Origin: Enterococcus sp. DIV0660C
Lineage (GTDB): Bacteria; Bacillota; Bacilli; Lactobacillales; Enterococcaceae
Direction: 5' to 3'
Assembly (NCBI RefSeq): GCF_017316125.1
Contig: NZ_JAFLWA010000035.1
Location: 1 to 39,139, forward strand
DNA length: 39,139 nt
Under the pieces are notes generated by a model. It made no database searches, was not told the origin of the DNA, and saw only the letters and a program-made list of their open reading frames with translations. Numbering within the stretch: position 1 is the stretch's first letter; every line of letters begins with the position of its first letter. Below, piece after piece: positions 17,678-33,406 of the stretch. The position numbers and the translations under genes were made by a program.

Positions 17678-17715
17678 CTATAGTTTGTTTCATTATACCT
17701 ATAATTTGTTTATTC
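17678..17715 (+). promoter_or_regulatory. 21-bp-spaced direct repeat, candidate AraC-type regulator site
   Basis: CTATAGTTTGTTT (17678-17690) recurs as CTATAATTTGTTT (17699-17711), one difference in 13, at an offset of exactly 21 bp. Two direct repeats two helical turns apart are the usual binding pattern of AraC-type dimers. The second copy covers the -35 region of the importer promoter, whose own -35 is poor. The YesN-like response regulator at 23572 is the obvious candidate. Repeats are seen; binding is inferred. Confidence 0.55.
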
Positions 17716-17726
17716 AATCTTGTTTT

Positions 17727-17741
17727 TGAAAGCGCTATAAT
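17727..17741 (+). promoter_or_regulatory. Importer operon -10 with overlapping cre (CcpA) site
   Basis: The -10 TATAAT is at 17736-17741. TGAAAGCGCTATAA (17727-17740) matches the cre consensus TGWNANCGNTNWCA at all but one position and covers most of the -10. CcpA bound here would block the promoter when preferred sugars are present. Confidence 0.62.
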
Positions 17742-17773
17742 AACGGTGCGAACAAGTTGAAAGGAGTTTTTTG

Positions 17774-18721
17774 ATGAAAAAAAGAAAGGGGTTAAAACAT
17801 TTTTTTTCAATGGCTTGGCGTTTTAAAGCCTTGATTTTAATGGCTGTTCCTGGGATGTTGTGGATGATCTTCTTCTTCTATATTCCAGTGTTAGCAAACG
17901 TGGTTGCCTTTAAAAATTTCCATATCTCTGCAGATGGATTTTTGGCAAGTTTGAGAGAGAGCCCGTGGGTTGGTTGGGAGAACTTCAAATTTTTATTTTC
18001 TTCAGATCAGGCATTTTTAATTACTAAGAATACGATTTTGTACAATGTAGGCTTCATTACACTAAACTTACTGATTTCGGTTGTTTTTGCCATTATCATG
18101 AGTGAATTAAGGAATAAAAAGTTAGTAAAAGTGTATCAAACAATGTCATTACTACCTTATTTCTTATCTTGGGTTATCATTAGTTACTTCGTTTATGCCT
18201 TTTTGAGCCCAGACAAAGGGATTTTCAACCAATGGCTTTTAGGTCATGGAAGAGAAGCAATCAATTGGTACAATGAACCGAAATATTGGCCATTTATTCT
18301 ATTGTTCATTGGGACGTGGAAAGGGATCGGCTATAATAGTATCATTTACTTTGCTTCAGTCATGGGAATCGATCCAACTTACTATGAAGCAGCTATGGTT
18401 GATGGCGCAAGCAAATGGCAACAAATCAAACATGTGACGATTCCTCAATTAGTACCCTTGATGTCGATTTTAACGATTTTAGCTGTCGGAAATATATTCC
18501 GAGCTGATTTTGGATTATTCTATAATATTCCACGAAATTCAGGCGCACTGTATGATGTGACTCAAGTTTTAGATACGTATATCTTTAATGGACTGACTTC
18601 TACAGGTGACTTTGGAATGACTGCAGCAGCTGGATTGTATCAGTCAGTTGTAGGATTTGTTTTGTTAATGACTACGAATGCGATCGCACGTCGTTTCGAC
18701 AGCGAATCAGCATTGTTTTAG
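17774..18721 (+). CDS. ABC sugar importer permease, LplB family
   Basis: This 315-residue inner-membrane permease has about six helices and the EAA loop YYEAAMVDGASKWQQIKHVTIPQL near residues 205-228, which docks to the ATPase. The start at 17774 is chosen because AAGGAG lies seven bases upstream; the TTG one codon before it is less likely. LplB-type permeases import complex oligosaccharides; relatives include the pneumococcal N-glycan importer NgtP1. It is the first gene of an operon with a second permease (12 bp after) and a solute-binding lipoprotein. No ATP-binding subunit is encoded with them. The substrate is inferred from the mannosidase genes downstream. Confidence 0.88.
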   Translation: MKKRKGLKHFFSMAWRFKALILMAVPGMLWMIFFFYIPVLANVVAFKNFHISADGFLASLRESPWVGWENFKFLFSSDQAFLITKNTILYNVGFITLNLLISVVFAIIMSELRNKKLVKVYQTMSLLPYFLSWVIISYFVYAFLSPDKGIFNQWLLGHGREAINWYNEPKYWPFILLFIGTWKGIGYNSIIYFASVMGIDPTYYEAAMVDGASKWQQIKHVTIPQLVPLMSILTILAVGNIFRADFGLFYNIPRNSGALYDVTQVLDTYIFNGLTSTGDFGMTAAAGLYQSVVGFVLLMTTNAIARRFDSESALF

Positions 18722-18733
18722 GAGGAGGATTCG

Positions 18734-19654
18734 ATGAAAAAGAAAAAAGTAGAGCAGGTTCAAGTGCGAGCTTTCAGCAAACCAATGAATCTCTTTTCTA
18801 ACTTATTGATCGCGATTTTTGCCTTCTCCTGTATCTTGCCGTTTCTATTTGTTATCGCGATTTCTTTGACAGATGAAACAGCGTTAGCAACTAATGGTTA
18901 TAGTTTCTGGCCAGAAAAATTCAGTACATTTGGTTATACGTATCTATTTGGGCAAATGCAAGAGAAAATTTTCCAAGCATTATTTGTAACAGTTTTAGTG
19001 ACGGTTTTAGGAACCTTGATCAATAGCACAGCCACTTCGCTGTATGCCTATGCAATCTCCCGCTCTAATTTCCCATTCCGTCGTTTCTTTACCGTTTTTT
19101 GTTTAATCACGATGTTGTTTTCACCAGGGATGGTGGCAAACTATTTGGTGATGACCAATTTACTTCAATTAAAAGATACGATTTGGGCACTGATTTTGCC
19201 AATGGCAGTTAGCCCATTTAATATTATCGTGATGCGAACTTTCTTTAAACGTTCAGTTTCAGATTCGATTATTGAATCTGCTCGAATCGATGGAGCAAGT
19301 GAGTTGCGGATTTTTATTCAAATCGTGTTACCCTTAGCAGTTCCTGGAATTGCGACAATTAGTTTATTTGCTGCTTTAGGTTACTGGAATGATTGGTTTA
19401 ACGCATTACTTTACATTCAAAACGATAACTTAGTCCCATTACAATACTTGTTGATGAAGATTCAAAGCAATATTCAATATCTAACACAAAATGCGGGTGC
19501 TGGAAGCCAGCTTGCCGGAGGTTTAGCAGCTGTACCAGGAGAATCAGCACGAATGGCGATTGTTGTTATCTCAACATTGCCAATTGCGATTAGCTACCCA
19601 TTTTTCCAAAAGCATTTTGTCAAAGGATTAACGATTGGTGGAGTCAAGGAATAA
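18734..19654 (+). CDS. ABC sugar importer permease, YtcP/LplC family
   Basis: This is the 306-residue partner permease. Its EAA loop reads IIESARIDGASELRIFIQIVLPLA at about residues 178-201, and six helices are predicted. It follows the LplB-type gene by 12 bp with a GGAGGAGG ribosome binding site. Proteins of this branch pair with LplB-type permeases and with solute-binding proteins of the LplA type, as seen in the next gene. The pair would form the membrane channel and would need a shared multi-sugar ATPase (MsmX/MsmK type) from elsewhere in the genome. Confidence 0.88.
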   Translation: MKKKKVEQVQVRAFSKPMNLFSNLLIAIFAFSCILPFLFVIAISLTDETALATNGYSFWPEKFSTFGYTYLFGQMQEKIFQALFVTVLVTVLGTLINSTATSLYAYAISRSNFPFRRFFTVFCLITMLFSPGMVANYLVMTNLLQLKDTIWALILPMAVSPFNIIVMRTFFKRSVSDSIIESARIDGASELRIFIQIVLPLAVPGIATISLFAALGYWNDWFNALLYIQNDNLVPLQYLLMKIQSNIQYLTQNAGAGSQLAGGLAAVPGESARMAIVVISTLPIAISYPFFQKHFVKGLTIGGVKE

Positions 19655-19686
19655 ATAATAAATTATTTTATTTAGGAGGAAGTAAG

Positions 19687-21144
19687 ATGAAGTTATGGAA
19701 GAAACTAGCCTTTACAGGAGTTTCAGCGTTGATGGTTGGTACATTAGCTGCTTGTGGGGGAGGATCAAGTGCAAGTAGTAATTCAGAAGGATCTGACAGC
19801 AAAACGTTGCAAATGTATCAAATTGGTGATAAACCAGACAATTATGATGCCTTGATGGAAGTTGCGAATAAACGAATCGAAGACAAAATTGGTGTGAAAG
19901 TCAATATCAACTATATTGGCTTTGGGGATTACGAGAAAAAAATGAACGTAATCATTTCTTCTGGTGAAAATTATGATATCGCTTATGCAAACAACTATGT
20001 TTCTAACGCTCAAAAAGGTGCTTTTGCCGACCTAACGGAGTTAGCGCCTAAATATGCTAAAGATGCTTATGATGCGTTAGATGAAGCTTATATCAAGGGA
20101 AACTTAGTCAATGATAAATTATATGCCTTTCCAGTAAATGGAAATGTTTTTGCTCAACAAGTGTTAACTTTTAATAAACCACTGTTAGATAAATACAACC
20201 TTTCAATCGATGGTATCGAATCTTATGCAGATGCCGAAAAAGTGTTACAAGAATTCCACAAAAAAGAACCAAATACGGCTGCTTTTGCCATTGGTCAAGG
20301 TTTCAAAGTTCAAGGCGACTTTGATTATCCTTTAGGAAATACCTTACCGTTTGCGATTGACTTAAATGGAGACAAAGCAAAGATCATCAATCAATATGAC
20401 AACAAAACTTATGTTGATTTACTTCGTACGATGCATAGTTGGTACCAACAAGGATTGATTCCAAGTGATGCGGCAACAAGTAGCAAAGATTATCCTTTAG
20501 AAGGAAATACTTGGTTACTACGTGGCGAAACACAAGGACCTTTCGATTATGGCGACACAATTTTAAGTAATGCAGCCAACCAAGAATTAGTTTCTAAATC
20601 AATCACTGTTCCTTTAAAATCAACAGGACAAGCACAAATGGCAAACTTCGTTGTTTCAAATACTTCAAAAAACAAAGAAAAAGCTGTTGAATTTTTAGGC
20701 TTGCTTAACAGCGATGCTGAATTATTGAACGGATTAGTTTGGGGGATTGAAGGCGAGGCTTGGGAAAAAGTAGATGGAACCAACGACAAGATCAAATTGT
20801 TAGATGGCTATCAACCAAAAACTCACATGTCTGCTTGGAACACAGGGAATAATGCAATCTTATATACACAAGAATCGATTACTGATGAAATGATCGCTAA
20901 ACGCGACAAATCAATTGAAGAAGCTGAAACTTCACCAATCTTAGGCTTCAGCTTTAATACAGATAGTGTTAAAACAGAAATCAGTAATATCTCAAACGTT
21001 ATGAATCAGTATATGGATGGATTAAACACCGGAACGGTTGATCCAGATGAAACATTGCCTAAATTGCTCGAGGCATTAGATAAAGCTGGTTACGAAAAAG
21101 TGTTAACTGAGATGCAAAAACAATACGATGAATTTCGAAAATAA
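19687..21144 (+). CDS. Extracellular sugar-binding lipoprotein, LplA family
   Basis: This 485-residue lipoprotein begins with MKLWKKLAFTG, a hydrophobic stretch and the lipobox LAAC with the lipidated Cys at 23, followed by a Gly/Ser linker. The mature part resembles family 1 extracellular solute-binding proteins of the LplA type, which bind oligosaccharides. It would sit on the outer face of the membrane and hand substrate to the two permeases upstream. GGAGGAAG precedes the ATG at 19687. A GC-rich hairpin right after the stop may separate its high expression from the regulatory genes that follow. By locus context the ligand is probably a mannose-rich glycan; that is inference. Confidence 0.88.
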   Translation: MKLWKKLAFTGVSALMVGTLAACGGGSSASSNSEGSDSKTLQMYQIGDKPDNYDALMEVANKRIEDKIGVKVNINYIGFGDYEKKMNVIISSGENYDIAYANNYVSNAQKGAFADLTELAPKYAKDAYDALDEAYIKGNLVNDKLYAFPVNGNVFAQQVLTFNKPLLDKYNLSIDGIESYADAEKVLQEFHKKEPNTAAFAIGQGFKVQGDFDYPLGNTLPFAIDLNGDKAKIINQYDNKTYVDLLRTMHSWYQQGLIPSDAATSSKDYPLEGNTWLLRGETQGPFDYGDTILSNAANQELVSKSITVPLKSTGQAQMANFVVSNTSKNKEKAVEFLGLLNSDAELLNGLVWGIEGEAWEKVDGTNDKIKLLDGYQPKTHMSAWNTGNNAILYTQESITDEMIAKRDKSIEEAETSPILGFSFNTDSVKTEISNISNVMNQYMDGLNTGTVDPDETLPKLLEALDKAGYEKVLTEMQKQYDEFRK

Positions 21145-21153
21145 ATAAGTCTG

Positions 21154-21187
21154 ACAGCGAGCGGTTCCATCTGCTCGCTGTTCTTTA
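21154..21187 (+). terminator. Hairpin after the sugar-binding lipoprotein gene (partial terminator)
   Basis: ACAGCGAGC (21154-21162) pairs with GCTCGCTGT (21173-21181), a perfect 9-bp GC-rich stem followed by TTCTTTATAT. The tail is weak, so some transcripts may read on into yesL. A TATAAT at 21188-21193 could also start a separate transcript, though without a clear -35. Confidence 0.65.
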
Positions 21188-21229
21188 TATAATAAGAGAG
21201 AAAAGATTATGTTTTGAAAAGGAGATATT

Positions 21230-21844
21230 ATGTTAGGAAAAGCTTTGGAGACATTGTTCATTCGCGTGTGGGTAGTAGTTAAACTAACACTTTTTTTCTG
21301 GTTGTTTAGTTTAGCCGGAGGAATTATTTTAGGGATTGGACCAGCGTTGAAAACAATCAATGAATTATTTTATCATTATGAGTTTGCGTACAAAGACATC
21401 ACAATCAAGCAAGGCTGGTACTGTTTCAAGAAATATTTTAAGCGAGGAAATTATTTGTTTTTCTTCTTTTTCGCAGCACTAGCTATTCTAAGTTATAATC
21501 TTTACCTTTCTGTTCAAATACAGGGACTCTTATTTTTGGGAATTGATTTTATTTTGTTATTTGGGTTACTTTATTTGTTTGCAACGTATCAATGGAGTTT
21601 GATTTTAGATAGTGAATATGAAATGACATTCGGCAATGTGATCAAGTTAAGTTTTATTTCAAGTTTATCGAGTTTCTCTACATTGTTGAAGATGATTATT
21701 GGCAGTGGTGTTATTCTTATGTTGACATGGCATTTCAAAGGCTTATTGTTATTTGGGTTACTGGGTTTATTGACCGTGTGGAATGTGTTGGCAACGAAAA
21801 AATGGCGCGAAGAATTAGCGATCCGAATGGAAAACTATGAATAA
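21230..21844 (+). CDS. yesL: YesL-family membrane protein (DUF624)
   Basis: This 204-residue protein has about five hydrophobic helices and the N-terminal family mark LFFWLFSLAGGIILGIGPALKT-like segment (about residues 20-43), typical of DUF624/YesL. Its function is unknown. In Bacillus and many Firmicutes it stands directly before a YesM/YesN two-component pair next to sugar importers, exactly as here, so an auxiliary role in sensing or transport is likely. AAAGGAG precedes the ATG. Its last eight bases overlap the start of the histidine kinase gene. Confidence 0.82.
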   Translation: MLGKALETLFIRVWVVVKLTLFFWLFSLAGGIILGIGPALKTINELFYHYEFAYKDITIKQGWYCFKKYFKRGNYLFFFFFAALAILSYNLYLSVQIQGLLFLGIDFILLFGLLYLFATYQWSLILDSEYEMTFGNVIKLSFISSLSSFSTLLKMIIGSGVILMLTWHFKGLLLFGLLGLLTVWNVLATKKWREELAIRMENYE

Positions 21845-23579
21845 TCCATTCAAAGTTTTATTTTCAAAAGGAACGTTGCTCAACCGTTTGTTACGTAAGT
21901 ACGCAGTAGTAATGACTGTACTCACAATTGGTGCAACAATTATTTTTAGTATCCATACTTGGAGTCAAAATAAAAATCAAGCAGAAAATGTTACCAATGA
22001 AGCACTGCAAACGACAAATCGAATGTTAAATGACAAAACAACATTAAGCAAAATTATCAAAGATCAACTTCTTGGAAGTCCAGAAAAAATTGAAAATGCG
22101 ACAACTTATCTGACTCAACCAATTGATCAGTATTTAATGTATGCATACACGCAACAAAGCAAAACGAATGAACTTTTATCTTTTCCCAATGAGATGTTGG
22201 ATCTTTACGTCAACTATGAAGAGATAAGTTCTCTTTACATTGTTTTTAGTCAATTGCCAGAGTATTTTGAATCTACCAGAGATCATAAGGCTGGTATTGT
22301 CAAAACAGGAACACCAACACTAAAAAATGCTTTTTATATCAAAATGCCGATTACCCAAGGTGGCACGGAATTGGGAAGTATCTTTGTTGGGTTTCAAAAG
22401 AAAGAACTAGAGTCTAGTTTGGAAAGTCTGAATGCTTTTAATGGCTTGTCTTTATATATGATTTCTGGCTCTGCTAATCGCCTGTACACTTTTCATAGCG
22501 CAGGGCTTACGCAAGAAAGTCGAAAAAAACAAGAAGCGCTGATCACACAAGAATTGGATAAGAATTCTGGATTACCTTTGTCGAAATTGGAAGAACATAA
22601 TTTTGTTTCCTATCAGGAATTATCCGGTGAGTATCGTATACTAGCAACGTTAGACCAACAAAATGTGTATCGAGAGACGGCAAGAAGTCTGGCGCCATTA
22701 ATTATTGGTGTGATTCTTTTAGTTAGTATTTTATTAGTCTTCTTATACAAAACATTTAAGCGTTATTCTCAGCAAATCGACGTAGTAATGCGTGCGATGA
22801 ACGAAGCGGCAAATGGTAATCTAGACACACGAATCGCCCAAGAACAAACAGAGTACGAGTTGAAAGATTTAGCACAAGGTATCAATACAATGTTGGATAG
22901 TATCAACCAATATGTTGAAGATATCTATAAATTAGAAATCAAACAAAAAGATGCACATATGCGCGCACTACAAGCACAAATCAACCCTCATTTTCTTTAT
23001 AACACCTTGGAATATATTCGAATGTATGCGTTGAGCGAGGGAAGTGAAGAACTTGCGGAAGTGGTCTATGCTTTTTCTGCATTATTAAGAAATAACACGA
23101 ATCAAGAAACAAAAATCAGTCTTAAAGAAGAGCTGAATTTTTGTGAAAAGTATGTATTTCTCTACCAAATGCGTTATCCTAATCGTGTAGCCTATCATTT
23201 TACGATTGAGGAATCTCTAGAACAAATTGAAGTACCAAAATTTGTGATCCAACCATTAGTTGAAAACTATTTTAAACATGGTATTGATTTTACTCGTTAT
23301 GACAATGCGTTGAGTGTAAAAGTTTTTCAACAAGGATCATTGGTACAAATTCAAGTGAAAGATAACGGTAAAGGAGTTACTCCAGAGCAATTAGTAGCAA
23401 TTGAAAATCGATTGGTACACCCAAGGGTTGAGTTGCACGAGTCAATTGGTTTGCAAAATGTAAATGAACGTTTACGTGCTAATTTCGGGAGTACTTACCG
23501 GATGAGGTTATTTGCAAATGAAGAAGGTGGCTTGACGATCAAAATTACATTTAAGAAGAAGGAGTCTGAAAATGTATAA
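21837..23579 (+). CDS. yesM: Sensor histidine kinase, YesM type
   Basis: This 580-residue membrane kinase has a first helix at about residues 20-42, an extracellular sensor of about 240 residues, a second helix near 284-304 and a HAMP-like linker. A His_kinase domain follows with QAQINPHFLYNTLEYIR (phospho-acceptor H385). The ATPase domain has PLVENYFKHG as N-box and VKDNGKG as G1 box. It overlaps yesL by 8 bp and the response regulator gene by 8 bp, so the three are probably translationally coupled. It likely senses a sugar outside the cell, perhaps through the neighbouring binding protein. No separate promoter is evident. Confidence 0.92.
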   Translation: MNNPFKVLFSKGTLLNRLLRKYAVVMTVLTIGATIIFSIHTWSQNKNQAENVTNEALQTTNRMLNDKTTLSKIIKDQLLGSPEKIENATTYLTQPIDQYLMYAYTQQSKTNELLSFPNEMLDLYVNYEEISSLYIVFSQLPEYFESTRDHKAGIVKTGTPTLKNAFYIKMPITQGGTELGSIFVGFQKKELESSLESLNAFNGLSLYMISGSANRLYTFHSAGLTQESRKKQEALITQELDKNSGLPLSKLEEHNFVSYQELSGEYRILATLDQQNVYRETARSLAPLIIGVILLVSILLVFLYKTFKRYSQQIDVVMRAMNEAANGNLDTRIAQEQTEYELKDLAQGINTMLDSINQYVEDIYKLEIKQKDAHMRALQAQINPHFLYNTLEYIRMYALSEGSEELAEVVYAFSALLRNNTNQETKISLKEELNFCEKYVFLYQMRYPNRVAYHFTIEESLEQIEVPKFVIQPLVENYFKHGIDFTRYDNALSVKVFQQGSLVQIQVKDNGKGVTPEQLVAIENRLVHPRVELHESIGLQNVNERLRANFGSTYRMRLFANEEGGLTIKITFKKKESENV

Positions 23580-25014
23580 AGTGTTGCTGGTTGATGATGA
23601 ATACATGATTTTGAATGGATTGAAAAAAATTGTTGATTGGTCCAGTTTTGGCTTTGAAATCGTAGCAACAGCAGAAAACGCGATGGAAGGGTTATTAGTT
23701 TTAGAAAAAACAGGTATTGATTTAGTTATTACAGATGTAACCATGCCAGAAATGAATGGTTTAGAGTTTATTGAAGCAGCTCAAAAGGAACAATACGCTT
23801 TTGAATTCATGATTCTTTCTGGCTATCAAGAATTTGAATACCTCAAAGGTGGTATGCAACTTGGGGCAGTTAATTATTTGATGAAGCCTGTAAATAAAAT
23901 AGAGTTGATTGAAAGCTTAAAAAAGGTCAAGGAACGTTTGGATCAGCAAAATGAACAAAAAAATCAGCAAGAAATTTATCAAGAACTTTTATTTAGTCAA
24001 TGGCTGAATGAAGAACTAGATGAAACCAGCGAAGAAGAATTTTTGAGCGGATTACCTCAAGGGACACAACAAATTTTATTGATTCAGCTAGAAAGAATCT
24101 ATGAATCTGCTATTATTCCATGGTTAAAGGAGCATCAAGTAACTACTTATTATCAGCGAAGTTTTGGGGATATGACTTGCTTTACCATCTTGCTTAGTCC
24201 TCAAAAAGGCAGCGATTTTTGTCACTATTTTCAAATGAAGTATCCAAAGCAAGATTGGTTGATTAGCGTGGGCGATGAAATAAAAGAAGTGGATGATATT
24301 CCTGAAAGCTTTCGTCGAGCAAAAGACCAGTTACAGCTTCAACAATTTTACGGTGAAACTAGACATGAAATCATTCGGTCGATTCCTGCAGAGAATCAAG
24401 ATCAGTTAATTGATTTTTCAACGTTTAGTCGTGCACTTCAAAGTAATCAGCTGGATTTAGTTCAACAAATGATTCGTGAGTTTTTTGAACAATTCCAGTC
24501 AGCAGTCATGACTCCTGAGGACATTCGACATTTTACTTTTTTATTATTTATGGATATTCAACGAGAGCTGATTACACTAGAAGATGATGAATACTTAAAA
24601 GGCATTCAACAAATTAATCAGGCAAAAAATGTAAATGATCTTCAAGAATTATTGCTCTCTTTAATTCGTAAGCAACAAAAGCAAAAAAACTACAGTGAAA
24701 ATATCAAACAAGTGCTACAAATACTGCACGAAAATTACCGAGAACCATTAACGTTAAAAGAAGTGTCTGAAAGTTTACACCTAAACGTGATGTATCTTGG
24801 ACAACTGTTTAAAAAAGAAACGAAAAAAAGCTTTTCTACTTATTTGAATCATTTGCGAATGGAGCAAGCAAAATGGTTGCTTTTGCATAGTGAACAAAAT
24901 ATCAATGAAATTTCAAACGAGATTGGTTACAATAACACCACTTACTTCTCTAAGTTATTTAAGAAAATCGTGGGACAATCACCAAAGGAGTATCGAGAAA
25001 AACCTCTTACTTAA
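23572..25014 (+). CDS. yesN: Response regulator with AraC-type DNA-binding domain, YesN type
   Basis: This 480-residue regulator has a receiver domain at 1-120 with DD at 8-9, phospho-acceptor D55 in VITDVTMPEMNG and the conserved Lys in MKPVN near 104. A helical linker follows, then a C-terminal AraC/XylS double helix-turn-helix (about 380-478) with SLHLNVMYLGQLFKKE and the signature NEISNEIGYNNTTYFSKLFK. It pairs with the YesM-type kinase. AraC-type regulators bind direct repeats about 21 bp apart, and such a repeat lies before the importer operon at 17678. The natural model is activation of the importer on sensing the glycan. Confidence 0.93.
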   Translation: MYKVLLVDDEYMILNGLKKIVDWSSFGFEIVATAENAMEGLLVLEKTGIDLVITDVTMPEMNGLEFIEAAQKEQYAFEFMILSGYQEFEYLKGGMQLGAVNYLMKPVNKIELIESLKKVKERLDQQNEQKNQQEIYQELLFSQWLNEELDETSEEEFLSGLPQGTQQILLIQLERIYESAIIPWLKEHQVTTYYQRSFGDMTCFTILLSPQKGSDFCHYFQMKYPKQDWLISVGDEIKEVDDIPESFRRAKDQLQLQQFYGETRHEIIRSIPAENQDQLIDFSTFSRALQSNQLDLVQQMIREFFEQFQSAVMTPEDIRHFTFLLFMDIQRELITLEDDEYLKGIQQINQAKNVNDLQELLLSLIRKQQKQKNYSENIKQVLQILHENYREPLTLKEVSESLHLNVMYLGQLFKKETKKSFSTYLNHLRMEQAKWLLLHSEQNINEISNEIGYNNTTYFSKLFKKIVGQSPKEYREKPLT

Positions 25015-25120
25015 ACTAGTTTCAAGGAAAAGGTAGCGGGAACGGCGGTTAGATGCAGATGCTTTTTTGCATAGATTGGAATTTCTGATTGTGGAATGTT
25101 AGTGACCAAGAAAAAAATCA

Positions 25121-25216: not shown

Positions 25217-27358
25217 CTAGGTTAAAGAAAATGGTAAAGCGTCTGCCGTGTATTTTTTTGGGTGAGGAACAGTACCTAAATGATAACGGATCGTTCCTCC
25301 TGTGAGTAAGTCTTCGTGTGTAAAGAATAACTTAGAATAGTTTTGTTCATTACGATCAACTTGATGAACAAACTGTTGTTGTGGCCGATTTGGCGAACTT
25401 TCAATCGTAAGTGTCTGACCGCTTGAGAGTTTTAGTTGAACTTGATCGAATAATGGCAGACCGATAACATATTCTCCTGAACCAGGTGTGACTGGATAAA
25501 AGCCTAAGCTACTAAAGATATACCAACCCGACATGCTACCATTGTCTTCATCGCCGGGATACCCTGTTGATGAGTCATTAAATGTTTGCGTAAGTAATTG
25601 TTTAATTAATGGCTGTGCCATCTCTGGTTTACCAAGATAACTGAATAAATAAGGATAATGGAAGCTAGGCTGATTTGAGATAGCTAGTTGTCCAAATTCA
25701 ATAGCAGCCATTTCACTCATTTCATGGATTTCAAACCCGTATCCACCAACTTCAAAGGAGGGGGATTGATTACAAAGTTCGATTAATTTTTCTTGAAAAA
25801 CGGCTTCTCCGCCATGTTCGCGAATCAATCCATTAAAATCTTGGTAGACGGCAAAGCTGCTTTGCCATGCACTACCTTCTGCATAATCTTGGCCCCAGCG
25901 AGTCGCTAGGAAGTTTTCTCTGAATTCTTGATTAGTATCTTTTGCACGCATGAATCCGACAGCAGGATCAAAAATATTGCGATAGTTTAAGGACTGTCTT
26001 TGATAAAAAGCACTAGTTTCTTCATCACCTAGTGTAGCGGCTACTTGACTGATACAAAAGTCACTATAAGCATAATCTAACGTATGATTGACTGATTCAT
26101 GGTAGGTACTAGGAACATAGCCGTATGTTAAATAATCAAGTGTTCCTTGACGTCCGTAATTAGGCAGTTTGCTTTGAACAGTAGCACTTTTTTTCATTGC
26201 CGTTAAAAATTCAGGCATCAAGTCAGTACGAATTCCTTTGACTGCAGCATCAGCAATTACTGCATCAATCAGTGTTCCGGGCATTAGGCCACGTTCATCA
26301 GGTGATAGCCATTTTGGCAAAAAGCCAGTTTCTCGATAACTTGTAAGAAATCCCTCAAGCATTTCCTCATATTTTTCAGTGGCTATCAACGAATAAAGTG
26401 GATAAACTGTTTTATACGTATCCCAAAATCCATTATTTGTATAGAGAATACCAGGGCGAACAGTTTTGCTAAATGTATCATAGTGGATTTTTTCACCATC
26501 ATCAGTTACTTCATAGAATGTTTGAGGAAAGAGAAATATACGATACAAGTTGTGATAAAAAGTACTTACTTGTTGTTTATCATGATGATTGATTTTGATT
26601 TTATCGAAATATTCTTGCCAAATTTGACGATTTTTTTCTAGATATGCATCAGGTGACTGCGCAGACTCTCTCGATAAATTTACTTGTGCTTGTTCTTCAC
26701 TAATAAAAGAAGTACCAAAGCGAATCGTTTGCTGTTTGATTGAACCAAACGGTAGCAAAATAGAAGAATCACTTTCTGAAATCACTAACTCAGTGTCAGC
26801 TAATGGTTTTTCAAAGGAAAGGATAAAATAAAAGCGAAAATCAGGATCTTCACACCCAGAAAAGTTGATAAAAGAACCCGTAATAGTATGCGAATCTACA
26901 ATGTTTATCTGATATCGTTCAGGGAAAGTTAAAAGTAAACCGCTATCATTTTTCTGGTAGTCAATTGTAAGTATCCCGCCATACATACTAGGAATCAACG
27001 TGGATGAAATAGCATATCGTAGTTGATTGATAGATAAATGTGTAGGACAAAATGTACTTTCTTCTGGTCGATAAGAACTCTGTGCGTGAAAAAGACTGTT
27101 TTCAGGGAGAGTACCACTAACAGGTGTCATTAGGAAATGACTGAAATCACCCATCCAAGGACTTGGTTGATGAGTTAAACGATAACCTTGAAAGACACGG
27201 TCTTCTGGGTGGAACCACCAACTTCCCTTTTGATCGGTTGTCTGTGGGGCAAAATAATTCATTCCAAACGGAACGCCTGTGTAAGGCAGGCAATTCCCGT
27301 TTGAATAGTTGGACTGGTTAGCAGTCCCGTGACGAGTATCAATTTGTTGAATGTTCAT
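25217..27358 (-). CDS. GH92 alpha-mannosidase (probably alpha-1,2-specific)
   Basis: This 713-residue glycosidase has the GH92 fold: an N-terminal beta-sandwich starting with DTRHGTANQSNYSNGNCLPY and a C-terminal (alpha/alpha)6 barrel. The barrel carries NNGFWDTYKTVYPLYSL, GTLIDAVIADAAVKG and GYPGDEDNGSMSGWYIFSSL, the last matching the segment with the catalytic Asp pair in known GH92 enzymes. GH92 enzymes are calcium-dependent, inverting exo-alpha-mannosidases, often alpha-1,2-specific. No signal peptide is present, so it acts inside the cell. The gene overlaps the end of the upstream GntR regulator by 20 bp and uses AAAGGAG within it. It would remove outer mannoses of imported high-mannose glycans. 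Confidence 0.9.
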   Translation of the reverse strand: MNIQQIDTRHGTANQSNYSNGNCLPYTGVPFGMNYFAPQTTDQKGSWWFHPEDRVFQGYRLTHQPSPWMGDFSHFLMTPVSGTLPENSLFHAQSSYRPEESTFCPTHLSINQLRYAISSTLIPSMYGGILTIDYQKNDSGLLLTFPERYQINIVDSHTITGSFINFSGCEDPDFRFYFILSFEKPLADTELVISESDSSILLPFGSIKQQTIRFGTSFISEEQAQVNLSRESAQSPDAYLEKNRQIWQEYFDKIKINHHDKQQVSTFYHNLYRIFLFPQTFYEVTDDGEKIHYDTFSKTVRPGILYTNNGFWDTYKTVYPLYSLIATEKYEEMLEGFLTSYRETGFLPKWLSPDERGLMPGTLIDAVIADAAVKGIRTDLMPEFLTAMKKSATVQSKLPNYGRQGTLDYLTYGYVPSTYHESVNHTLDYAYSDFCISQVAATLGDEETSAFYQRQSLNYRNIFDPAVGFMRAKDTNQEFRENFLATRWGQDYAEGSAWQSSFAVYQDFNGLIREHGGEAVFQEKLIELCNQSPSFEVGGYGFEIHEMSEMAAIEFGQLAISNQPSFHYPYLFSYLGKPEMAQPLIKQLLTQTFNDSSTGYPGDEDNGSMSGWYIFSSLGFYPVTPGSGEYVIGLPLFDQVQLKLSSGQTLTIESSPNRPQQQFVHQVDRNEQNYSKLFFTHEDLLTGGTIRYHLGTVPHPKKYTADALPFSLT

Positions 27359-28406
27359 TGTTAAGCTCCTTTGTTGAGTGTCTTGTTATTAATGTAACTG
27401 GGTATTTGGTATCGATTGGTGTTTCTTTGGTTTCAAGCCAGTGAATCAACTTTTCTCCAGCTGATTTTCCAAGTTCTTTAAAATTTTGGGCGATAGTTGT
27501 CAAAGGTGGATCAACTAAAGAGGCAGCTTGAATATCATCGAAACCAATAATCGAAAAGTCGGCAGGCACTGAAAATCCAGCTTGTTTCAGTTGGTTCATT
27601 GTTTGAATGGCAACAAGATCATTTTCGCAGACAAACGCCGTAAGCTGGTGTTCTTGGATATAGTTTAATAACTCTTTATTCGTGGCTTTTTGGTCATCAA
27701 GTGCAGTATGGAAAGCTAAATTAGCTTTATCAAGAGCTTCAAGATAGCCTAAGTAGCGTTGACGCACAGATTGTGGATGAGTTGGCTCACCAAATAGGAA
27801 ACCAATTTTCTGATGTCCATCAGCAATCAATTGATTTGTGGCTAGCGCGCCACCTGCAAAGTTGTCAGAAAGAACGGTTGGAAATGGCAGTTCATAAATT
27901 TTCTTATCCAAGATAACGACAGGAAATTCTTTCAGCGAAAGTTCAAATAGTAAATCCAAGTGCTGCTCAGTATCAATAGCGTAGTAAATCAATCCATCGA
28001 ATTCATCCATCACTTCTTGCGCCGTCTTTGTTTGGAGAAAATCAAGGGAAGTCATTAATACTTCAAATTGATTTTCTTGCATGATTGGGTTCAATCCTTC
28101 AGTGAAATCACCAACAGACAAATCAGTTAAGAACGGAAATAAAAATAGAATTCGCTTTGTTTTTTGGATAGAGACAATCGATGCCTCTGGCTTGTCTGCT
28201 TTGACAAAGCTACCTTTTCCACGAATTCGATAAATCAAACCAAGTTGTTCCAATTCTGTTAATGCTCGTTTGGAAGTGATTCGACTTACTTGATATTTTT
28301 GAGAAAGTTCTTTTTCAGTAGGGACTTGGCTATCAATTGCTAATGTTCCATCAAGGATTGCATTGTGTAGATCAATAAATATTTTCTTATATAATGGTTG
28401 CTCCAT
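27339..28406 (-). CDS. GntR-type repressor with LacI-like sugar-sensing domain (AraR type)
   Basis: This 355-residue hybrid regulator has an N-terminal GntR winged helix (about residues 4-72; PTEKELSQKYQVSRITSKRAL) and a C-terminal periplasmic-binding-like domain of the LacI/GalR type (about 80-345; GFLFGEPTHPQSVRQRYLGY, IIGFDD). AraR of B. subtilis has the same design. The start at 28406 is chosen because AAGAGGTG lies five bases upstream. An in-frame ATG further upstream (28469) would place the gene's own promoter inside the coding region. It overlaps the GH92 gene by 20 bp, giving a two-gene operon. Palindromes at both divergent promoters suggest that it represses itself and the GH125-GH38-ROK operon until a glycan breakdown sugar binds. 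Confidence 0.88.
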   Translation of the reverse strand: MEQPLYKKIFIDLHNAILDGTLAIDSQVPTEKELSQKYQVSRITSKRALTELEQLGLIYRIRGKGSFVKADKPEASIVSIQKTKRILFLFPFLTDLSVGDFTEGLNPIMQENQFEVLMTSLDFLQTKTAQEVMDEFDGLIYYAIDTEQHLDLLFELSLKEFPVVILDKKIYELPFPTVLSDNFAGGALATNQLIADGHQKIGFLFGEPTHPQSVRQRYLGYLEALDKANLAFHTALDDQKATNKELLNYIQEHQLTAFVCENDLVAIQTMNQLKQAGFSVPADFSIIGFDDIQAASLVDPPLTTIAQNFKELGKSAGEKLIHWLETKETPIDTKYPVTLITRHSTKELNNEHSTN

Positions 28407-28420
28407 AATAACACCTCTTA

Positions 28421-28432
28421 ATGATATATCAT
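28421..28432. promoter_or_regulatory. Operator candidate A (perfect palindrome) at the gntR start point
   Basis: ATGATATATCAT is a perfect 12-bp palindrome. On the minus strand it begins just where transcription should start downstream of an extended -10 TGCTATCAT (28447-28439). A bound repressor would block the gntR-GH92 operon. The core GATATATC recurs at 28526-28533. Confidence 0.55.
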
Positions 28433-28438
28433 GTATAA

Positions 28439-28447
28439 ATGATAGCA
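28439..28447 (-). promoter_or_regulatory. Extended -10 promoter of the gntR-GH92 operon
   Basis: On the minus strand TGCTATCAT (28447-28439) is an extended -10 with 5 of 6 in the hexamer, about 33 bp before the ATG at 28406. The -35 is unclear. Confidence 0.5.
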
Positions 28448-28481
28448 TAAATAATATAAAAGTAAACAATAAAAAATACTA

Positions 28482-28518
28482 TGAAAGCGTAGACAAAAAT
28501 TATTTCAAGAAGTATAAT
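28482..28518 (+). promoter_or_regulatory. Promoter of the GH125-GH38-ROK operon with overlapping cre site
   Basis: TAGACA (28490-28495), a 17-bp spacer and TATAAT (28513-28518) form a near-consensus promoter. TGAAAGCGTAGACA (28482-28495) matches the cre consensus at all but one position and overlaps the -35, so CcpA should compete with RNA polymerase. Confidence 0.75.
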
Positions 28519-28525
28519 CTACTAA

Positions 28526-28533
28526 GATATATC
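28526..28533. promoter_or_regulatory. Operator candidate B at the GH125 start point
   Basis: GATATATC, the core of operator A, begins 7 bp after the -10 at 28513-28518, so it covers the first transcribed bases. The flanks differ (AA on both sides versus AT). A related GATATACC occurs at 28569, inside the coding start. Confidence 0.5.
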
Positions 28534-28557
28534 AAACAGAAAAGAGGATATTGAGAT

Positions 28558-29847
28558 ATGCCATATAAAGATATACCAAAATCAGTTGAAAAATTCATGG
28601 GGAAAATTGAACAAAAATGTGGAAGTGAGCATGAAGATTGGGCAAAAAATTTTTCTACTGCCTTTGCTAATACATTGCTAACCACAGTAAAACGGCATTC
28701 TGATGGAACAACTTTCTTGTTAACCGGTGATATACCAGCTATGTGGTTAAGAGACTCCACTGCACAAGTACGTCCTTACTTAGTGATTGCTAAAGAAGAC
28801 AAAGACTTAGCAGCAATGATTAGTGGATTGGTAAAAAAACAATTCTTTTATATCAATATTGATCCGTATGCAAATGCGTTCAATGAAGAAGCGAACGGGG
28901 CAGGACATCAGAGTGACCATACCGAAATGAATGATTGGATCTGGGAAAGGAAATATGAAATTGACTCATTATGTTACCCTGTTCAACTTGCTTATCTTTT
29001 ATATAAAAATACGGGACAAACAGATCAATTTGACGACTCATTTGTTTCAGGAATCCAAAAAATTCTAGGTGTTTTTCAAACAGAACAAGATCATACTAAA
29101 TCACCTTACCAATTCGAACGTGATACTACTCGTCTGGAAGACACGCTTGTAAATGATGGGAAAGGTGCAAAAGTAGTCCCTACAGGAATGACTTGGTCAG
29201 GTTTTCGCCCAAGTGATGACGCTTGCCGATATGGGTATCTAGTCCCATCGAACATGTTTGCAGTAGTTGTTTTAGGATATATTGAAGAAATTTTTCAAAC
29301 AGTGTTATCAAATAATCAAATCGTAGCAAAAGCTACTGCGTTACGAGAAGAGATCCAACAAGGGATTGAAGCATACGGTAAAACTAAAAATCAAGCACAA
29401 GAAACTATTTTCGCATACGAAGTAGATGGTCAAGGAAACTCCTCATTAATGGATGACAGCAATGTGCCGAACCTAATGTCTGCACCTTATCTAGGCTACT
29501 GTTCTTCTGAAGATGAAACGTATTTACAAACAAGAAAAACCTTGCTGAGCTCAGAAAATCCTTACTTTTATGAAGGAAAGTACGCGAAAGGAATTGGCTC
29601 TTCTCATACACCTGAAAATTATGTTTGGCCAATTGCTTTAGCAATGGAAGGCATGACTACTAACGATCGAAAAGAAAAAGAACGAATTTTAGATTTGTTA
29701 GTAGCAACAGATGCTGGAACAAACTTGATGCACGAAGGTTTTGATGTGGATAATCCGAACAATTACACAAGAGAATGGTTTTCTTGGGCAAATATGATGT
29801 TTTGTGAATTAGTAATGGATTATTTTGATATTCGAGTAGAAAAATAG
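28558..29847 (+). CDS. GH125 exo-alpha-1,6-mannosidase
   Basis: This 429-residue enzyme has the (alpha/alpha)6 barrel sequence of GH125 (formerly DUF1237): GDIPAMWLRDSTAQVRPYL near the N terminus, WSGFRPSDDACRYGYLVPSN with D220, and MHEGFDVDNPNNYTREWFSW with E393. From memory, D220 and E393 are the same numbers given for acid and base in the Clostridium perfringens enzyme. GH125 inverts the linkage, needs no metal and takes alpha-1,6-mannose from trimmed N-glycan cores. It has no signal peptide. AGAGGATATTGAG precedes the ATG. It is the first gene of an operon with GH38 (10 bp gap) and a ROK kinase, divergent from gntR-GH92. Confidence 0.93.
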   Translation: MPYKDIPKSVEKFMGKIEQKCGSEHEDWAKNFSTAFANTLLTTVKRHSDGTTFLLTGDIPAMWLRDSTAQVRPYLVIAKEDKDLAAMISGLVKKQFFYINIDPYANAFNEEANGAGHQSDHTEMNDWIWERKYEIDSLCYPVQLAYLLYKNTGQTDQFDDSFVSGIQKILGVFQTEQDHTKSPYQFERDTTRLEDTLVNDGKGAKVVPTGMTWSGFRPSDDACRYGYLVPSNMFAVVVLGYIEEIFQTVLSNNQIVAKATALREEIQQGIEAYGKTKNQAQETIFAYEVDGQGNSSLMDDSNVPNLMSAPYLGYCSSEDETYLQTRKTLLSSENPYFYEGKYAKGIGSSHTPENYVWPIALAMEGMTTNDRKEKERILDLLVATDAGTNLMHEGFDVDNPNNYTREWFSWANMMFCELVMDYFDIRVEK

Positions 29848-29857
29848 GAGTGATTAA

Positions 29858-32542
29858 ATGAAAAAGAAAGTATATATTATTTCCCACAGTCACTGGGATC
29901 GAGAATGGTACATGGCCTATGAACAACACCACATGCGTTTAGTTGAATTGATGGATGATTTGTTAGAACTTTTTGAGAATGACCCTGCATTCGATAGCTT
30001 TCACTTAGATGGACAGACAATTATTTTAGATGACTACTTACAAGTAAGACCGGAGAAAAGAGCATTAGTTCAACAAGCAATTGATGTGGGCAAGCTACGT
30101 ATTGGACCATTTTATATTTTGCAAGATGACTTTTTGATTAGCTCAGAATCCAACGTGCGTAATATGTTGATTGGGATGGAAGAAACACAAAAATGGGGTG
30201 TACCAGTAATGCTTGGCTACTTCCCAGACACATTTGGAAATATGGGTCAAACGCCTCAAATGATGAAACAAGTTGGAATTGAAGCAGCAGCATTCGGTCG
30301 AGGGGTAAAACCGATTGGCTTTGATAATCAAGTGCTTGAAGCAGAAAATTATTCTTCCCAATATTCTGAAATGAAATGGAAAGGTCCTGATAGCTCTGAA
30401 ATTTTCGGCTTATTATTCGCAAATTGGTATAGCAATGGAAATGAAATACCAGTTGAAGAACAAGAAGCTAAAATATTTTGGGACCAAAAATTGGCTGATG
30501 CAGAACAATATGCTTCAACCGAACATTTATTGATGATGAATGGTGTTGATCATCAGCCTGTTCAAAAAGATATATCAAAGGCAATTGCGTTAGCCAATCG
30601 TTTGTATCCAGATTATGAATTCATTCATTCTAATTTTACAGACTACTTAGCAGCGGTAACAAATGATTTGCCTGAAGATCTGGGAACAGTGGAAGGCGAA
30701 TTAACGAGTCAAGAAACAGACGGCTGGTATACTTTGGCAAATACTGCATCTGCACGCGTATATTTAAAACAATGGAATACAAAAGTTCAAAGACAATTAG
30801 AAAATATTGCTGAGCCATTAGCAACGATGGCATATGAATTTTCGGGAAGTTATCCTCATGATCAATTAGATTATGCTTGGAAAACATTAATGCAGAATCA
30901 TCCGCATGATAGTATTTGTGGTTGTTCAGTGGACTCTGTTCATCGAGAAATGATTACACGATTTGAAAAAGCAGATGAAGTTGGGAAATTTGTGGCAGAA
31001 GAAGCAATGAGACAATTGGCGCAAGTTATCGATACAAGTGAATTCCCAGAAGATACGTATCCTTTTGTTGTAGTCAATACAGCTGGAACAGCAAAAACGG
31101 GTGAAGCAGTTATTGAAATCGAACTGGAACGTAAAAAGTTTGCTGAAGGATTACCAGAAACGTTGTTTAAAGAGTTGGAAGATGCTCCTGCTAAGAGTTA
31201 TCATGTTGAAAACGCACAAGGAGAAGTCATTCCTGCAACTGTTTCTGAAGCAACTGTTCGTTTTGATTATGACTTACCAAAAGATCGATTCCGGATACCT
31301 TATATGGAAAAAGTAGTGACTGTAACTATTCCACTTGAAGAAATGGCTGCTTTTTCATGGGAGACATTTACGTTAGCTGAAGGAGAATCACCAACTATTA
31401 CTGGTTCAATGGTCAACGACCAAGGACGAGTAATCGAAAATGAATTTCTCAAAATCAAAATTGAAGAGAATGGTTCGTTAACAGTAATGGACAAAAAAAT
31501 GGCTCGTCAATTTGAAGATATTCTTGTTTTTGAAGATACGGGTGATGTCGGAAATGAGTATATCTATAAACAGCCAATTGATACAGTACCGATTCTTTCG
31601 AACCAACAAGAGGATTCTCAAGTAGAAATCTTGATTGATACACCGGAGATTGCTCAAATCCAACTCAATCAGACGATGATGATTCCCGTTTCTGCCGATG
31701 AGCTTTTGGAAAAAGAACAACAAATGGTAGTTGAATTTCGTTACCGTAAAGCAAAACGAGCGCACGAATTAAAACCATTATTAATAGAAACAAAAATTAC
31801 TTTAAGAAAAAATAGTCGAAAAATCGACTTTGAAACAACAATTGATAATCAAATGAAAGATCATCGATTACGTGCACTATTTCCAACGAAGTTACATGTG
31901 GAACACCATGAAGCAGATAGTATATTTGAAGTCGTTACACGACCAAATAAAGTTTCTGCAAGCTGGGAGAATCCAACGAATCCGCAACATCAACACGCTT
32001 TTGTGAATCTTCATGATAAAAATTATGGTGTCACAATTGGAAACTATGGTTTGAATGAATACGAAATTTTAGATGAAGGACAAATTGCATTGACGTTATT
32101 GCGTTGTGTTGGTGAGTTAGGGGACTGGGGATACTTTCCAACTCCTGAAGCACAGTGTTTAGGACAACAACACTTCCAATATAGTATGGAAATTCATGAA
32201 CCAAATGAAAAGTTTGAATCTTATCAACATGCGTATGCTGCGCAAGTTCCATTTACGACGCAACAGTTAACGAATCAACAAGGTGAATTAAGCAATAAAA
32301 ATAGTTATTTGGAAGTAAAAGCTAAAACGTTTGCAATTACTGCTTTGAAGCGAAGCAAGTTTAATGATAAAGTAGTACTGAGAGGATTCAATCTGTCAGA
32401 AAAAGAAGAAGAAATCGTTGTTCAAAAAACAGGAACAACTAGCAGATTGTTGAATCTTTTAGAAAAAGACAGTAAGCAAACGATTGAGCCGACATTGATG
32501 CCTTATGAAATTCGGACAATCGGATTCGAGGAGGAAAAGTAA
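29858..32542 (+). CDS. GH38 alpha-mannosidase
   Basis: This 894-residue retaining alpha-mannosidase has the N-terminal zinc motif SHSHWDREW, where H12 and D14 correspond to metal ligands of GH38. The nucleophile region YFPDTFGNMGQTPQMM carries the likely nucleophile D124. Another conserved stretch is MMNGVDHQPVQ, and NHPHDSICGCSVDSVHREM includes a further metal-ligand His. C-terminal beta domains follow from about 500. The size and order match the cytoplasmic streptococcal GH38 enzymes, which cleave alpha-1,3-mannose. No signal peptide is present. AGGAGTG precedes the ATG, and the stop codon abuts the ROK kinase start. It would complete trimming of the mannose branches together with GH92 and GH125. 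Confidence 0.93.
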   Translation: MKKKVYIISHSHWDREWYMAYEQHHMRLVELMDDLLELFENDPAFDSFHLDGQTIILDDYLQVRPEKRALVQQAIDVGKLRIGPFYILQDDFLISSESNVRNMLIGMEETQKWGVPVMLGYFPDTFGNMGQTPQMMKQVGIEAAAFGRGVKPIGFDNQVLEAENYSSQYSEMKWKGPDSSEIFGLLFANWYSNGNEIPVEEQEAKIFWDQKLADAEQYASTEHLLMMNGVDHQPVQKDISKAIALANRLYPDYEFIHSNFTDYLAAVTNDLPEDLGTVEGELTSQETDGWYTLANTASARVYLKQWNTKVQRQLENIAEPLATMAYEFSGSYPHDQLDYAWKTLMQNHPHDSICGCSVDSVHREMITRFEKADEVGKFVAEEAMRQLAQVIDTSEFPEDTYPFVVVNTAGTAKTGEAVIEIELERKKFAEGLPETLFKELEDAPAKSYHVENAQGEVIPATVSEATVRFDYDLPKDRFRIPYMEKVVTVTIPLEEMAAFSWETFTLAEGESPTITGSMVNDQGRVIENEFLKIKIEENGSLTVMDKKMARQFEDILVFEDTGDVGNEYIYKQPIDTVPILSNQQEDSQVEILIDTPEIAQIQLNQTMMIPVSADELLEKEQQMVVEFRYRKAKRAHELKPLLIETKITLRKNSRKIDFETTIDNQMKDHRLRALFPTKLHVEHHEADSIFEVVTRPNKVSASWENPTNPQHQHAFVNLHDKNYGVTIGNYGLNEYEILDEGQIALTLLRCVGELGDWGYFPTPEAQCLGQQHFQYSMEIHEPNEKFESYQHAYAAQVPFTTQQLTNQQGELSNKNSYLEVKAKTFAITALKRSKFNDKVVLRGFNLSEKEEEIVVQKTGTTSRLLNLLEKDSKQTIEPTLMPYEIRTIGFEEEK

Positions 32543-33406
32543 ATGTACGGCGGAATAGAAGCGGGTGGCACAAAGTTTGTTTGTGCGGTGGCCAATGATC
32601 AACATAAAATTATGGAGAAAGTAAGTATTCCTACAACGACTCCAATAGAAACGTTGCAACAAGTGTTTGCTTTTTTTGATAAGTTTGACTTATCTGCTAT
32701 GGGGATCGGCTCATTTGGCCCGATTGGCATTGACCAAACAAAAGATAATTATGGATACGTTTTAGCGACACCTAAAAAAGGTTGGGCTGATTTTGACTTT
32801 TTAGGGAGTGTTAAAGCACGTTATCAAATTCCAATTGCGTGGACAACAGATGTTAATGCTGCAGCCTATGGCGAATTAAAGAAAGGTGCAGCACAGGGAA
32901 AGGATAGCTGTATCTATCTAACTGTTGGTACTGGAATTGGTGCAGGTGTCGTCTTGAATCAAGACATTTTTTCAGGAATTGCTCATCCGGAAATGGGACA
33001 TATTTGGGTGAAACGTCATCCAGATGACACATATGCTGGTACTTGTCCTTACCATGGGGATTGTTTGGAAGGGTTGGCGGCAGGACCTTCATTAGAAGCA
33101 AGAACAGGAATCAAAGGTCAAGATTTACCAGTAGACCATCCTGTATGGGATATCCAAGCGTTTTATATTGCACAAGCTTTAATCAACTATACATTAACTT
33201 TAGCACCAGAAAAAATTATCCTTGGTGGCGGTGTAATGAATCAAGATCATTTACTACAAAAAATTCGTCAACAATTTGTCGAACTAATGGCAGGATACAT
33301 GGAAGTTCCGGAAGCTAGCGAATATATTGTTCGTTGGGGGTTACCGAATGAAAGTGGAATTATTGGTAGTTTGTTATTAGCAGAAAAAGAGTATCGACAA
33401 AAATAA
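32543..33406 (+). CDS. ROK-family sugar kinase (fructokinase/mannokinase type)
   Basis: This 287-residue ROK kinase has the phosphate-binding loop GGIEAGGTKFVCAV (residues 3-16), catalytic D103 in TTDVNAAAYGE, and the ROK zinc site formed by H and C in HPEMGHIWVKRHPDD plus CPYHGDC. The second loop GTGIGAGVV is present. The close relatives are ScrK/GmuE-type kinases, several of which phosphorylate mannose as well as fructose. Placed directly after two alpha-mannosidases (ATG abuts the GH38 stop codon, GAGGAAAAG as ribosome binding site), it most likely turns released mannose into mannose-6-phosphate. Substrate is inferred from context. A bidirectional terminator follows. Confidence 0.88.
   Translation: MYGGIEAGGTKFVCAVANDQHKIMEKVSIPTTTPIETLQQVFAFFDKFDLSAMGIGSFGPIGIDQTKDNYGYVLATPKKGWADFDFLGSVKARYQIPIAWTTDVNAAAYGELKKGAAQGKDSCIYLTVGTGIGAGVVLNQDIFSGIAHPEMGHIWVKRHPDDTYAGTCPYHGDCLEGLAAGPSLEARTGIKGQDLPVDHPVWDIQAFYIAQALINYTLTLAPEKIILGGGVMNQDHLLQKIRQQFVELMAGYMEVPEASEYIVRWGLPNESGIIGSLLLAEKEYRQK

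Follow-up and report, generated by a model that had tools for sequence, protein, structure and literature searches.

The 39,139-nucleotide stretch of Enterococcus sp. DIV0660C DNA analyzed here (the window) carries a putative N-glycan utilization block, which spans 17771-33406 on contig C29 of a 2.6-Mb genome. The gene content that the initial annotation had given for 17678..33406 was borne out, every gene lying at its given place with a strong family match: two permeases, a solute-binding protein (SBP; DUF3502), a YesL-type protein (DUF624), a histidine kinase (HK), an AraC-type response regulator (RR), glycoside hydrolases (GH) of families GH92 (466 bits), GH125 (523 bits) and GH38, a ROK kinase (220 bits), and a GntR-LacI hybrid composed of a GntR helix-turn-helix (HTH) and Peripla_BP_3. 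By its sequence, the block is confirmed as a member of the pneumococcal/Firmicutes N-glycan uptake system (NgtS-P1-P2, TCS07, GH92/GH125/GH38/ROK). The underlying biology is expected, and what is new is a regulatory variant with a testable candidate operator. The features are listed below, including the catabolite-responsive elements (cre); the first permease gene (P1) and the GntR-LacI gene probably start at ATG 17774 and ATG 28406, the called TTG starts looking like extensions.

17679..17710, plus strand: direct repeat TATAGTTTGTT-N10-TATAATTTGTT with a 21-bp period, candidate box of the YesN-type regulator (pattern searches)
17727..17741, plus strand: cre-like TGAAAGCGCTATAA (17727-17740) overlapping the -10 element TATAAT (17736-17741) of the importer promoter (sequence; fixed offset in 36/38)
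17774..18721, plus strand: ABC permease 1, NgtP1-like (family match, synteny)
18734..19654, plus strand: ABC permease 2 (P2), NgtP2-like (family match, synteny)
19687..21144, plus strand: lipoprotein SBP, NgtS homologue with Trp386 kept and Trp81 replaced by Phe (alignment; residue roles from PMC5215778)
21153..21182, plus strand: stable hairpin, terminator- or attenuator-like, in the gap between the SBP gene and yesL (folding energy)
21230..21844, plus strand: YesL-like membrane protein, DUF624 (family match)
21837..23579, plus strand: YesM-type sensor HK with H-box QINPHFLYNTL (family match, motif)
23572..25014, plus strand: YesN-type RR, RR07-like, with receiver at 4-116 and AraC HTH at 399-476 (family match)
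25217..27358, minus strand: GH92 alpha-mannosidase, no signal peptide seen (family match; 7fe1/6dwo, 1187 bits)
27339..28406, minus strand: GntR-LacI hybrid regulator; open reading frame called to 28469, ATG 28406 behind a ribosome-binding site (family match, sequence)
28421..28432, no strand: palindrome ATGATATATCAT, candidate GntR-LacI operator on the gntR-GH92 side (sequence; recurrent)
28482..28495, plus strand: cre-like TGAAAGCGTAGACA over the -35 element (TAGACA) of the GH125 promoter (identical in 19/30 intergenic regions)
28513..28534, plus strand: promoter of the GH125-GH38-ROK operon, with -10 element TATAAT at 28513-28518 and a second operator-like sequence, AGATATATCA, at 28525-28534 (sequence; recurrent palindrome)
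28558..29847, plus strand: GH125 alpha-mannosidase, alpha-1,6 by family (family match)
29858..32542, plus strand: GH38 alpha-mannosidase (family match; 3lvt, 1263 bits)
32543..33406, plus strand: ROK sugar kinase, closest solved structure 1xc3, a putative fructokinase (family match)

Promoter box of importer and endoglycosidase genes

The box was first read by eye before P1 and before an unlinked GH85 gene and was then searched for. It is a direct repeat of TWWANTTTGTT with a 21-bp period, followed 18 nt downstream by a cre core that overlaps the -10 element. The pattern TWWANTTTGTN11TWWANTTTGTT has two exact matches in its own genome, one in the importer promoter and one in that of GH85; tolerating one mismatch added a single match, and the reversed control then gave two. 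In a family survey of 105 genomes, 61 exact matches were found in 46 genomes, versus 7 for the reversed pattern (counted from the control columns). Forty-one of the 61 lay before the importer on the contig carrying the SBP gene and a further one, on a different contig, lay ahead of a P1 homologue, while 11 preceded GH85 genes and two preceded EndoS-type GH18 endoglycosidase genes, both in genomes without GH85. One more was located before a ROK/AraC/GH20 cluster and five were elsewhere, about the number expected from the control; these five and the GH20-cluster match have no cre core. With an SBP match counted at E values up to 1e-80, 63 genomes carried the binding protein, and 45 of these had a box match of any kind and 43 had one before the importer or an endoglycosidase, compared to 1/42 of the other genomes. 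Counts among close kin carry less weight than the finding of the box before unlinked GH85 and GH18 genes.

The geometry was analyzed in Enterococcaceae in an importer set (the window plus 37 of the 40 loci taken for synteny comparison, with L097, L105, and L110 dropped) and a GH85 set (the 30 of 40 places with loci). Under a tolerant score (16/20 at period 21), the box was present in 38/38 importer and 29/30 GH85 promoters. The cre core lay exactly 18 nt past it in 36/38 and 24/30 of them, respectively, and at 6 to 7 nt in three more GH85 promoters. Among the control regions, box-like pairs were seen upstream of YesL in 2/39, in 2/404 coding chunks, and before GH125 or gntR in 0/29 each, none with a cre. 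A stricter half-site gave 38/38 importers at period 21, with a maximum of 12 for all other periods between 13 and 30; streptococcal importers scored 26/27 at 21 (14 at 19, 10 at 24), and 14 other Firmicutes, including Vagococcus, scored 11 at 21 (at most 1 at other periods), with shuffled sequences passing in 0 to 1.7%. When all spacings from 15 to 27 were compared for the 77 of 79 named loci that show P1, the best pair was the one at 21, scoring 14 to 20 of 20; ties were broken towards 21 in this test, and many loci were close kin or came from genomes already counted. The box is kept in Enterococcaceae and has drifted in streptococci, Listeria, and Erysipelothrix; inspection by eye shows degenerate half-sites 21 bp apart in the GH125 promoters of S. 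mitis and S. australis. Before strH, none of 13 GH20 loci (5 with the start in view) had a clear pair at 21, L259 showing a weak one. The exact box without cre in genome G037 (L147:5636-10596) is situated about 260 bp before its ROK/AraC-type/GH20 cluster.

Several published studies bear on the site to which the N-glycan response regulator binds. Pneumococcal RNA-seq placed NgtP1/P2/S, EndoD, GH92, GH125, GH38, and ROK under RR07. A motif was not found in 2020, electrophoretic mobility shift assays (EMSA) were negative in 2022, and a short candidate, CTWWWWWWAG, was proposed in 2024 from endoD upstream regions (PMC11034029); no fuller RR07 motif was found in the open-access literature. The sequence CTATAATTAG, which fits CTWWWWWWAG, occurs in the second half-site of 24/27 streptococcal importer boxes, and S. 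cristatus and S. intermedius have two such elements 21 bp apart before endoD. The present element thus extends, and does not replace, the published candidate: the latter was published as a single element, whereas here it is half of a 21-bp-period repeat at a fixed distance to cre and -10, with enterococcal half-sites ending in TTTGTT. The published work drawn on throughout is PMC5215778, PMC7075642, PMC11034029, PMC8262876, PMC12502629, PMC9603416, PMC8894350, PMC3946673, PMC10154615, and PMC13098192.

Importer, mannosidases, and endoglycosidases

The window SBP aligns with the structures of NgtS (SP_0092; 5swa/5swb) at 537 bits over residues 32 to 485. NgtS binds Man5GlcNAc, its Trp386 stacking on Man-GlcNAc and its Trp81 contacting the terminal alpha-1,6-Man (PMC5215778). 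Trp386 (numbering derived from the construct limits 25-491) aligns with Trp384 of the window protein and is invariant in 11/11 aligned SBPs. From this likeness to NgtS, the ligand is predicted to be a glycan of the Man-GlcNAc type. The uptake and internal breakdown of alpha-mannosidic N-glycans, as initially proposed, is therefore well supported by an NgtS homologue with Trp386 kept, and a high-mannose specificity of the system is plausible. The genome encodes one MalK/MsmK-type ATPase, on contig C38; MsmK has been proposed as the ATPase of the pneumococcal importer. Downstream of the SBP gene, a hairpin (21145-21195; -21.5 kcal/mol, z score -6.1) may cause the sensor genes to be transcribed less than the importer. 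The sensor genes have the hallmarks of a TCS07-type module, i.e., an HK, an RR with receiver, long linker, and AraC HTH, and a YesL-type neighbor; its putative targets, importer and endoglycosidase, share a near-exclusive promoter box.

The closest solved structures of the mannosidases are 7fe1/6dwo (GH92), 3qpf (GH125), and 3lvt (GH38). FRPSDD/MHEGF in GH125 and HSHWD/FPDTFG in GH38 are kept, and we take these, like WFINQE in GH85, to be catalytic motifs. The GH125-GH38 pair with GH92 and ROK that marks a carbohydrate-processing locus (CPL) is present, while GH29 and GH20C were absent from the 11 block proteins and the 9 other window proteins scanned. A crude secretion test (maximum 12-residue hydropathy within the first 40 amino acids) gave 0.47 for GH92, -0.01 for GH125, and 1.16 for GH38, compared to 1.99 for the SBP and 2.86 for the GH85 lipoprotein; none of the three mannosidase N termini is strongly hydrophobic, in keeping with the earlier statement that they lack signal peptides. 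Between gntR and GH125, the palindrome TGATATATCA has at least one exact copy in 16/30 regions, two copies in 11, and none in 14, which is an undercount as several regions, the window's included, are clipped by an over-long gntR start; the window has an exact copy at 28421-28432 and a one-base variant at 28525-28534. Because this palindrome and a cre recur there while the box is absent, the data suggest that the cytoplasmic enzymes are under separate control, unlike in pneumococcus, where RR07 overexpression induces those mannosidase genes.

That no GH18 or GH85 enzyme is encoded in the window was upheld by own-genome searches with PF00704, PF03644, and PF23916, which gave no match on C29. Glycan release had hence been assigned to an enzyme encoded elsewhere or to other bacteria. 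The same genome has a GH85 gene on C64 and a gene for an apparently secreted EndoE-like GH18 on C23, so that other bacteria need not be invoked. The GH85 protein, the only one in the genome, is a lipoprotein (lipobox VSGC; 303 bits to the family) with WFINQE at residue 217, which fits an extracellular location and Asn-x-Glu, presumably the GH85 catalytic motif. It scores 470 bits to 2vtf/3fha, which we take to be Arthrobacter Endo-A, acting on Man5-9, versus 277 to EndoD; for the GH85 of another genus in the family, the values are 476 versus 266. On these higher scores to 2vtf/3fha, the enzyme may be Endo-A-like and cleave glycans bearing alpha-1,2-mannose. In a midpoint-rooted GH85 tree of 47 parts (30 Enterococcaceae plus 17/20 others, three partial or second copies having been dropped), all 30 Enterococcaceae sequences fall apart from streptococcal EndoD. 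In the survey, GH85 was found in 39/105 genomes, of which 38 were among the 63 with the SBP and 1 among the 42 others.

The C23 GH18 gene is part of a second mannoside cluster (L293:5735-13139) with GntR-UTRA, a phosphotransferase system EIIC, GH38, and GH125; its product has a hydrophobic N terminus and is closest to EndoE 7puj (483 bits). In G022, G033, and G099, GH125 likewise adjoins an EndoS-type GH18. Two other PF00704 proteins were rejected as releasing enzymes, one on C20 that is closest to chitinases and one on C14 with fn3 and CBM5/12 domains; a third match, on C9, was below the family cut-off. PMC3946673 cites the growth of E. faecalis on RNase B as the only source of carbon and itself shows that cultures become denser with lactoferrin or with the glycans released from it.

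The initial annotation had regarded the fusion of these functions in one block as novel. Such co-location has already been published: an ABC transporter accompanies the mannosidase locus in 8/10 loci (Robb 2017), and the locus, transporter, and TCS07 are co-localized in six Streptococcus species (Andreassen 2020). The block agrees with pneumococcal NgtS-P1-P2 and CPL in its NgtS-type SBP, two permeases, lack of an own ATPase, GH92, GH125, GH38, and ROK, and in having the endoglycosidase elsewhere in the genome. It differs in forming one linked block, in the GntR-LacI regulator, in having no GH29/GH20 in the block, and in a GH85 with better scores to the Endo-A structures than to EndoD. With the streptococcal TCS07 regulon it shares an HK-RR operon with a YesL-type neighbor, which in several streptococci adjoins importer and CPL; the Enterococcaceae differ in that the inner mannosidase promoters are without the box and many have the GntR-LacI operator-like palindrome. 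E. faecalis V583 has an importer and sensor genes of the same order and annotation (EF2223-21/EF2219-18). We take EF2223-21 to be the same importer, orthology being assumed from gene order and annotation. For EF2223-21, a cre has been predicted and expression is raised when ccpA is mutated, and the NagY targets include ef0114, ef2863, ef2223-21, and ef2219-18; with importer and sensor genes among these targets, control would be layered.

Proposed wiring of the system and alternatives

We propose, with a probability of roughly 0.7, that the block serves N-glycan foraging in the manner of the pneumococcal NgtS/CPL/TCS07 system and that its wiring has two arms. In the outer arm, the YesL/YesM/YesN module would sense a glycan-related signal, upon which the response regulator would bind the 21-bp-period repeat, its best candidate and predicted binding site, and switch on the importer operon and the distant surface GH85. 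In the presence of glucose, CcpA at the cre on the -10 element would shut both off. In the inner arm, an imported sugar or a breakdown product would relieve repression by GntR-LacI and release gntR-GH92 and GH125-GH38-ROK, the three cytoplasmic mannosidases would then trim the glycan, and the kinase would phosphorylate a released sugar. The sequence itself shows which genes are present, those for the endoglycosidases and the ATPase included, and that the promoter elements are conserved, while the binding of the box by the regulator, the roles of CcpA and GntR-LacI, the signal, the ligand, the linkages cut by the enzymes, and the sequence of steps are inferred.

A broader reading, which we hold to be somewhat better than an even bet, joins three points. 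The 21-bp-period repeat with cre/-10 at 18 nt would be a general operator of TCS07/YesN-type N-glycan regulators from Enterococcus to Listeria and Erysipelothrix, drifted in Streptococcus. The Enterococcaceae regulon would be split, with surface genes (importer and GH85 or, in some genomes, GH18) under the sensor and cytoplasmic mannosidases under a sugar-responsive repressor. Finally, an Endo-A-like GH85 could let alpha-1,2-mannose glycans enter whole, giving GH92 its substrate. The box is long, rigid, and nearly unique per genome and predicts unlinked targets, making it directly testable by reporter or binding assay. If the prediction is true, the box would identify, genome by genome, the endoglycosidase gene that supplies the importer and would show how glycan sensing and repression by glucose come together at a single promoter.

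A number of observations weigh against the proposed wiring, including two considered below with the alternatives that they favor. GH85 is absent from 25 of the 63 SBP genomes, and the box precedes only 2/25 EndoS-type GH18 genes. The stricter half-site at period 21 is found in 20/30 GH85 promoters (at most 4 at other periods). Since the half-site derives from the very sequences that were counted and the counts share ancestry, the counts reflect conservation, not independent events. At the streptococcal EndoD and GH125 genes, known RR07 targets, the box is weak or absent, the stricter half-site giving 3/9 (3 at 13) and 0/21, respectively. NgtS Trp81, which is the majority consensus of the 11 SBPs, is replaced by Phe in the window protein, and a GH130 phosphorylase for the Man-beta-GlcNAc remnant was not found in the own genome. 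In the 2022 EMSA work, pneumococcal RR07 did not bind the strH and gh125 promoters.

The repeat could be bound by a regulator other than the adjacent YesN-type one, a possibility that we judge improbable, if the most credible of the alternatives. It would account for G049, the sole GH85 genome of the survey without an SBP match, in which a box-like repeat (L050, 19/20) nonetheless precedes GH85. However, the two-helical-turn repeat follows the importer-sensor block across genomes (43/63 versus 1/42, as above), its half-site matches the published RR07 candidate, the cre is separate, and GntR-LacI has its own recurrent palindrome elsewhere. A little less probable still is that the importer mainly serves as a backup for glucose or another simple sugar, with the mannosidases as a separate function. 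EF2223-21 is in fact described in print as a glucose importer: its deletion in an E. faecalis V583 rpoN mutant cut growth further on 10 mM glucose, and a non-PTS importer was proposed from this double-mutant defect. The single mutant nevertheless grew like the wild type on glucose, and the window SBP is closest to NgtS, a Man5GlcNAc binder, with the core-stacking Trp kept. The linkage of GH125 in 29/40 stretches, the presence of GH85 inside five of them, and the promoter box shared with endoglycosidases also count against this alternative. The poorest odds go to a substrate such as fungal alpha-mannan or other manno-oligosaccharides instead of host N-glycan. Alpha-mannan breakdown by Bacteroides also uses GH92, GH38, and GH125 but employs the endo-acting GH76 and GH99 (PMC10154615), neither of which was among the 20 window proteins scanned, the genome not having been searched for them. 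Endo-beta-GlcNAcases with the importer's promoter box, on the other hand, fit N-glycans.

Distribution of the locus

Judged by the binding protein, the closest named relatives (99%) among the best 80 of 173 matches were Enterococcus thailandicus DSM 21767 and Enterococcus sp. MSG2901. GH125 was more widespread in the survey than the SBP (77/105 versus 63/105 genomes). The order P2-SBP-YesL-HK-RR is kept in 39/40 Enterococcaceae loci, with P1 ahead of it in 37 (L097 and L105 lose P1 where the contig or stretch ends); L110, a 37% relative, departs from this order and shows only the permeases and SBP. Stretches that include GH125 mostly have GH92, gntR, and GH38 as well; for the remaining 11, GH125 is farther away, on another contig, absent, or past a short stretch end. 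The five stretches with GH85 inside are L087, L089, L099, L104, and L106. The gene-content comparison suggested in the initial annotation thus shows the same blocks recurring in Enterococcaceae, which is not chance. The set of 79 named loci shows the importer again in Vagococcus, Granulicatella, Brochothrix, Listeria, Pullulanibacillus, Erysipelothrix, and Streptococcus, with the sensor genes mostly present. The SBP gene of Listeria is placed after the regulator gene. Importer and mannosidases without sensor genes are seen in many S. mitis/oralis-type stretches.

Genome G069 (C1, C2; L085, L151, L152) has three NgtS-like binding proteins with 81, 56, and 52% identity to the window SBP, perhaps for different glycans. 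At G072:C2:234809-236268, the NgtS-like match consists of two overlapping pieces with a stop and is apparently broken. In L090 (G095), the matches to P2, to the response regulator, and to GH92 are each split into two or three pieces, reflecting frameshifts or sequence errors. Outside the block, the window has an ordinary T-box leader (8974-9186; 121 bits) upstream of a leucyl-tRNA synthetase gene.

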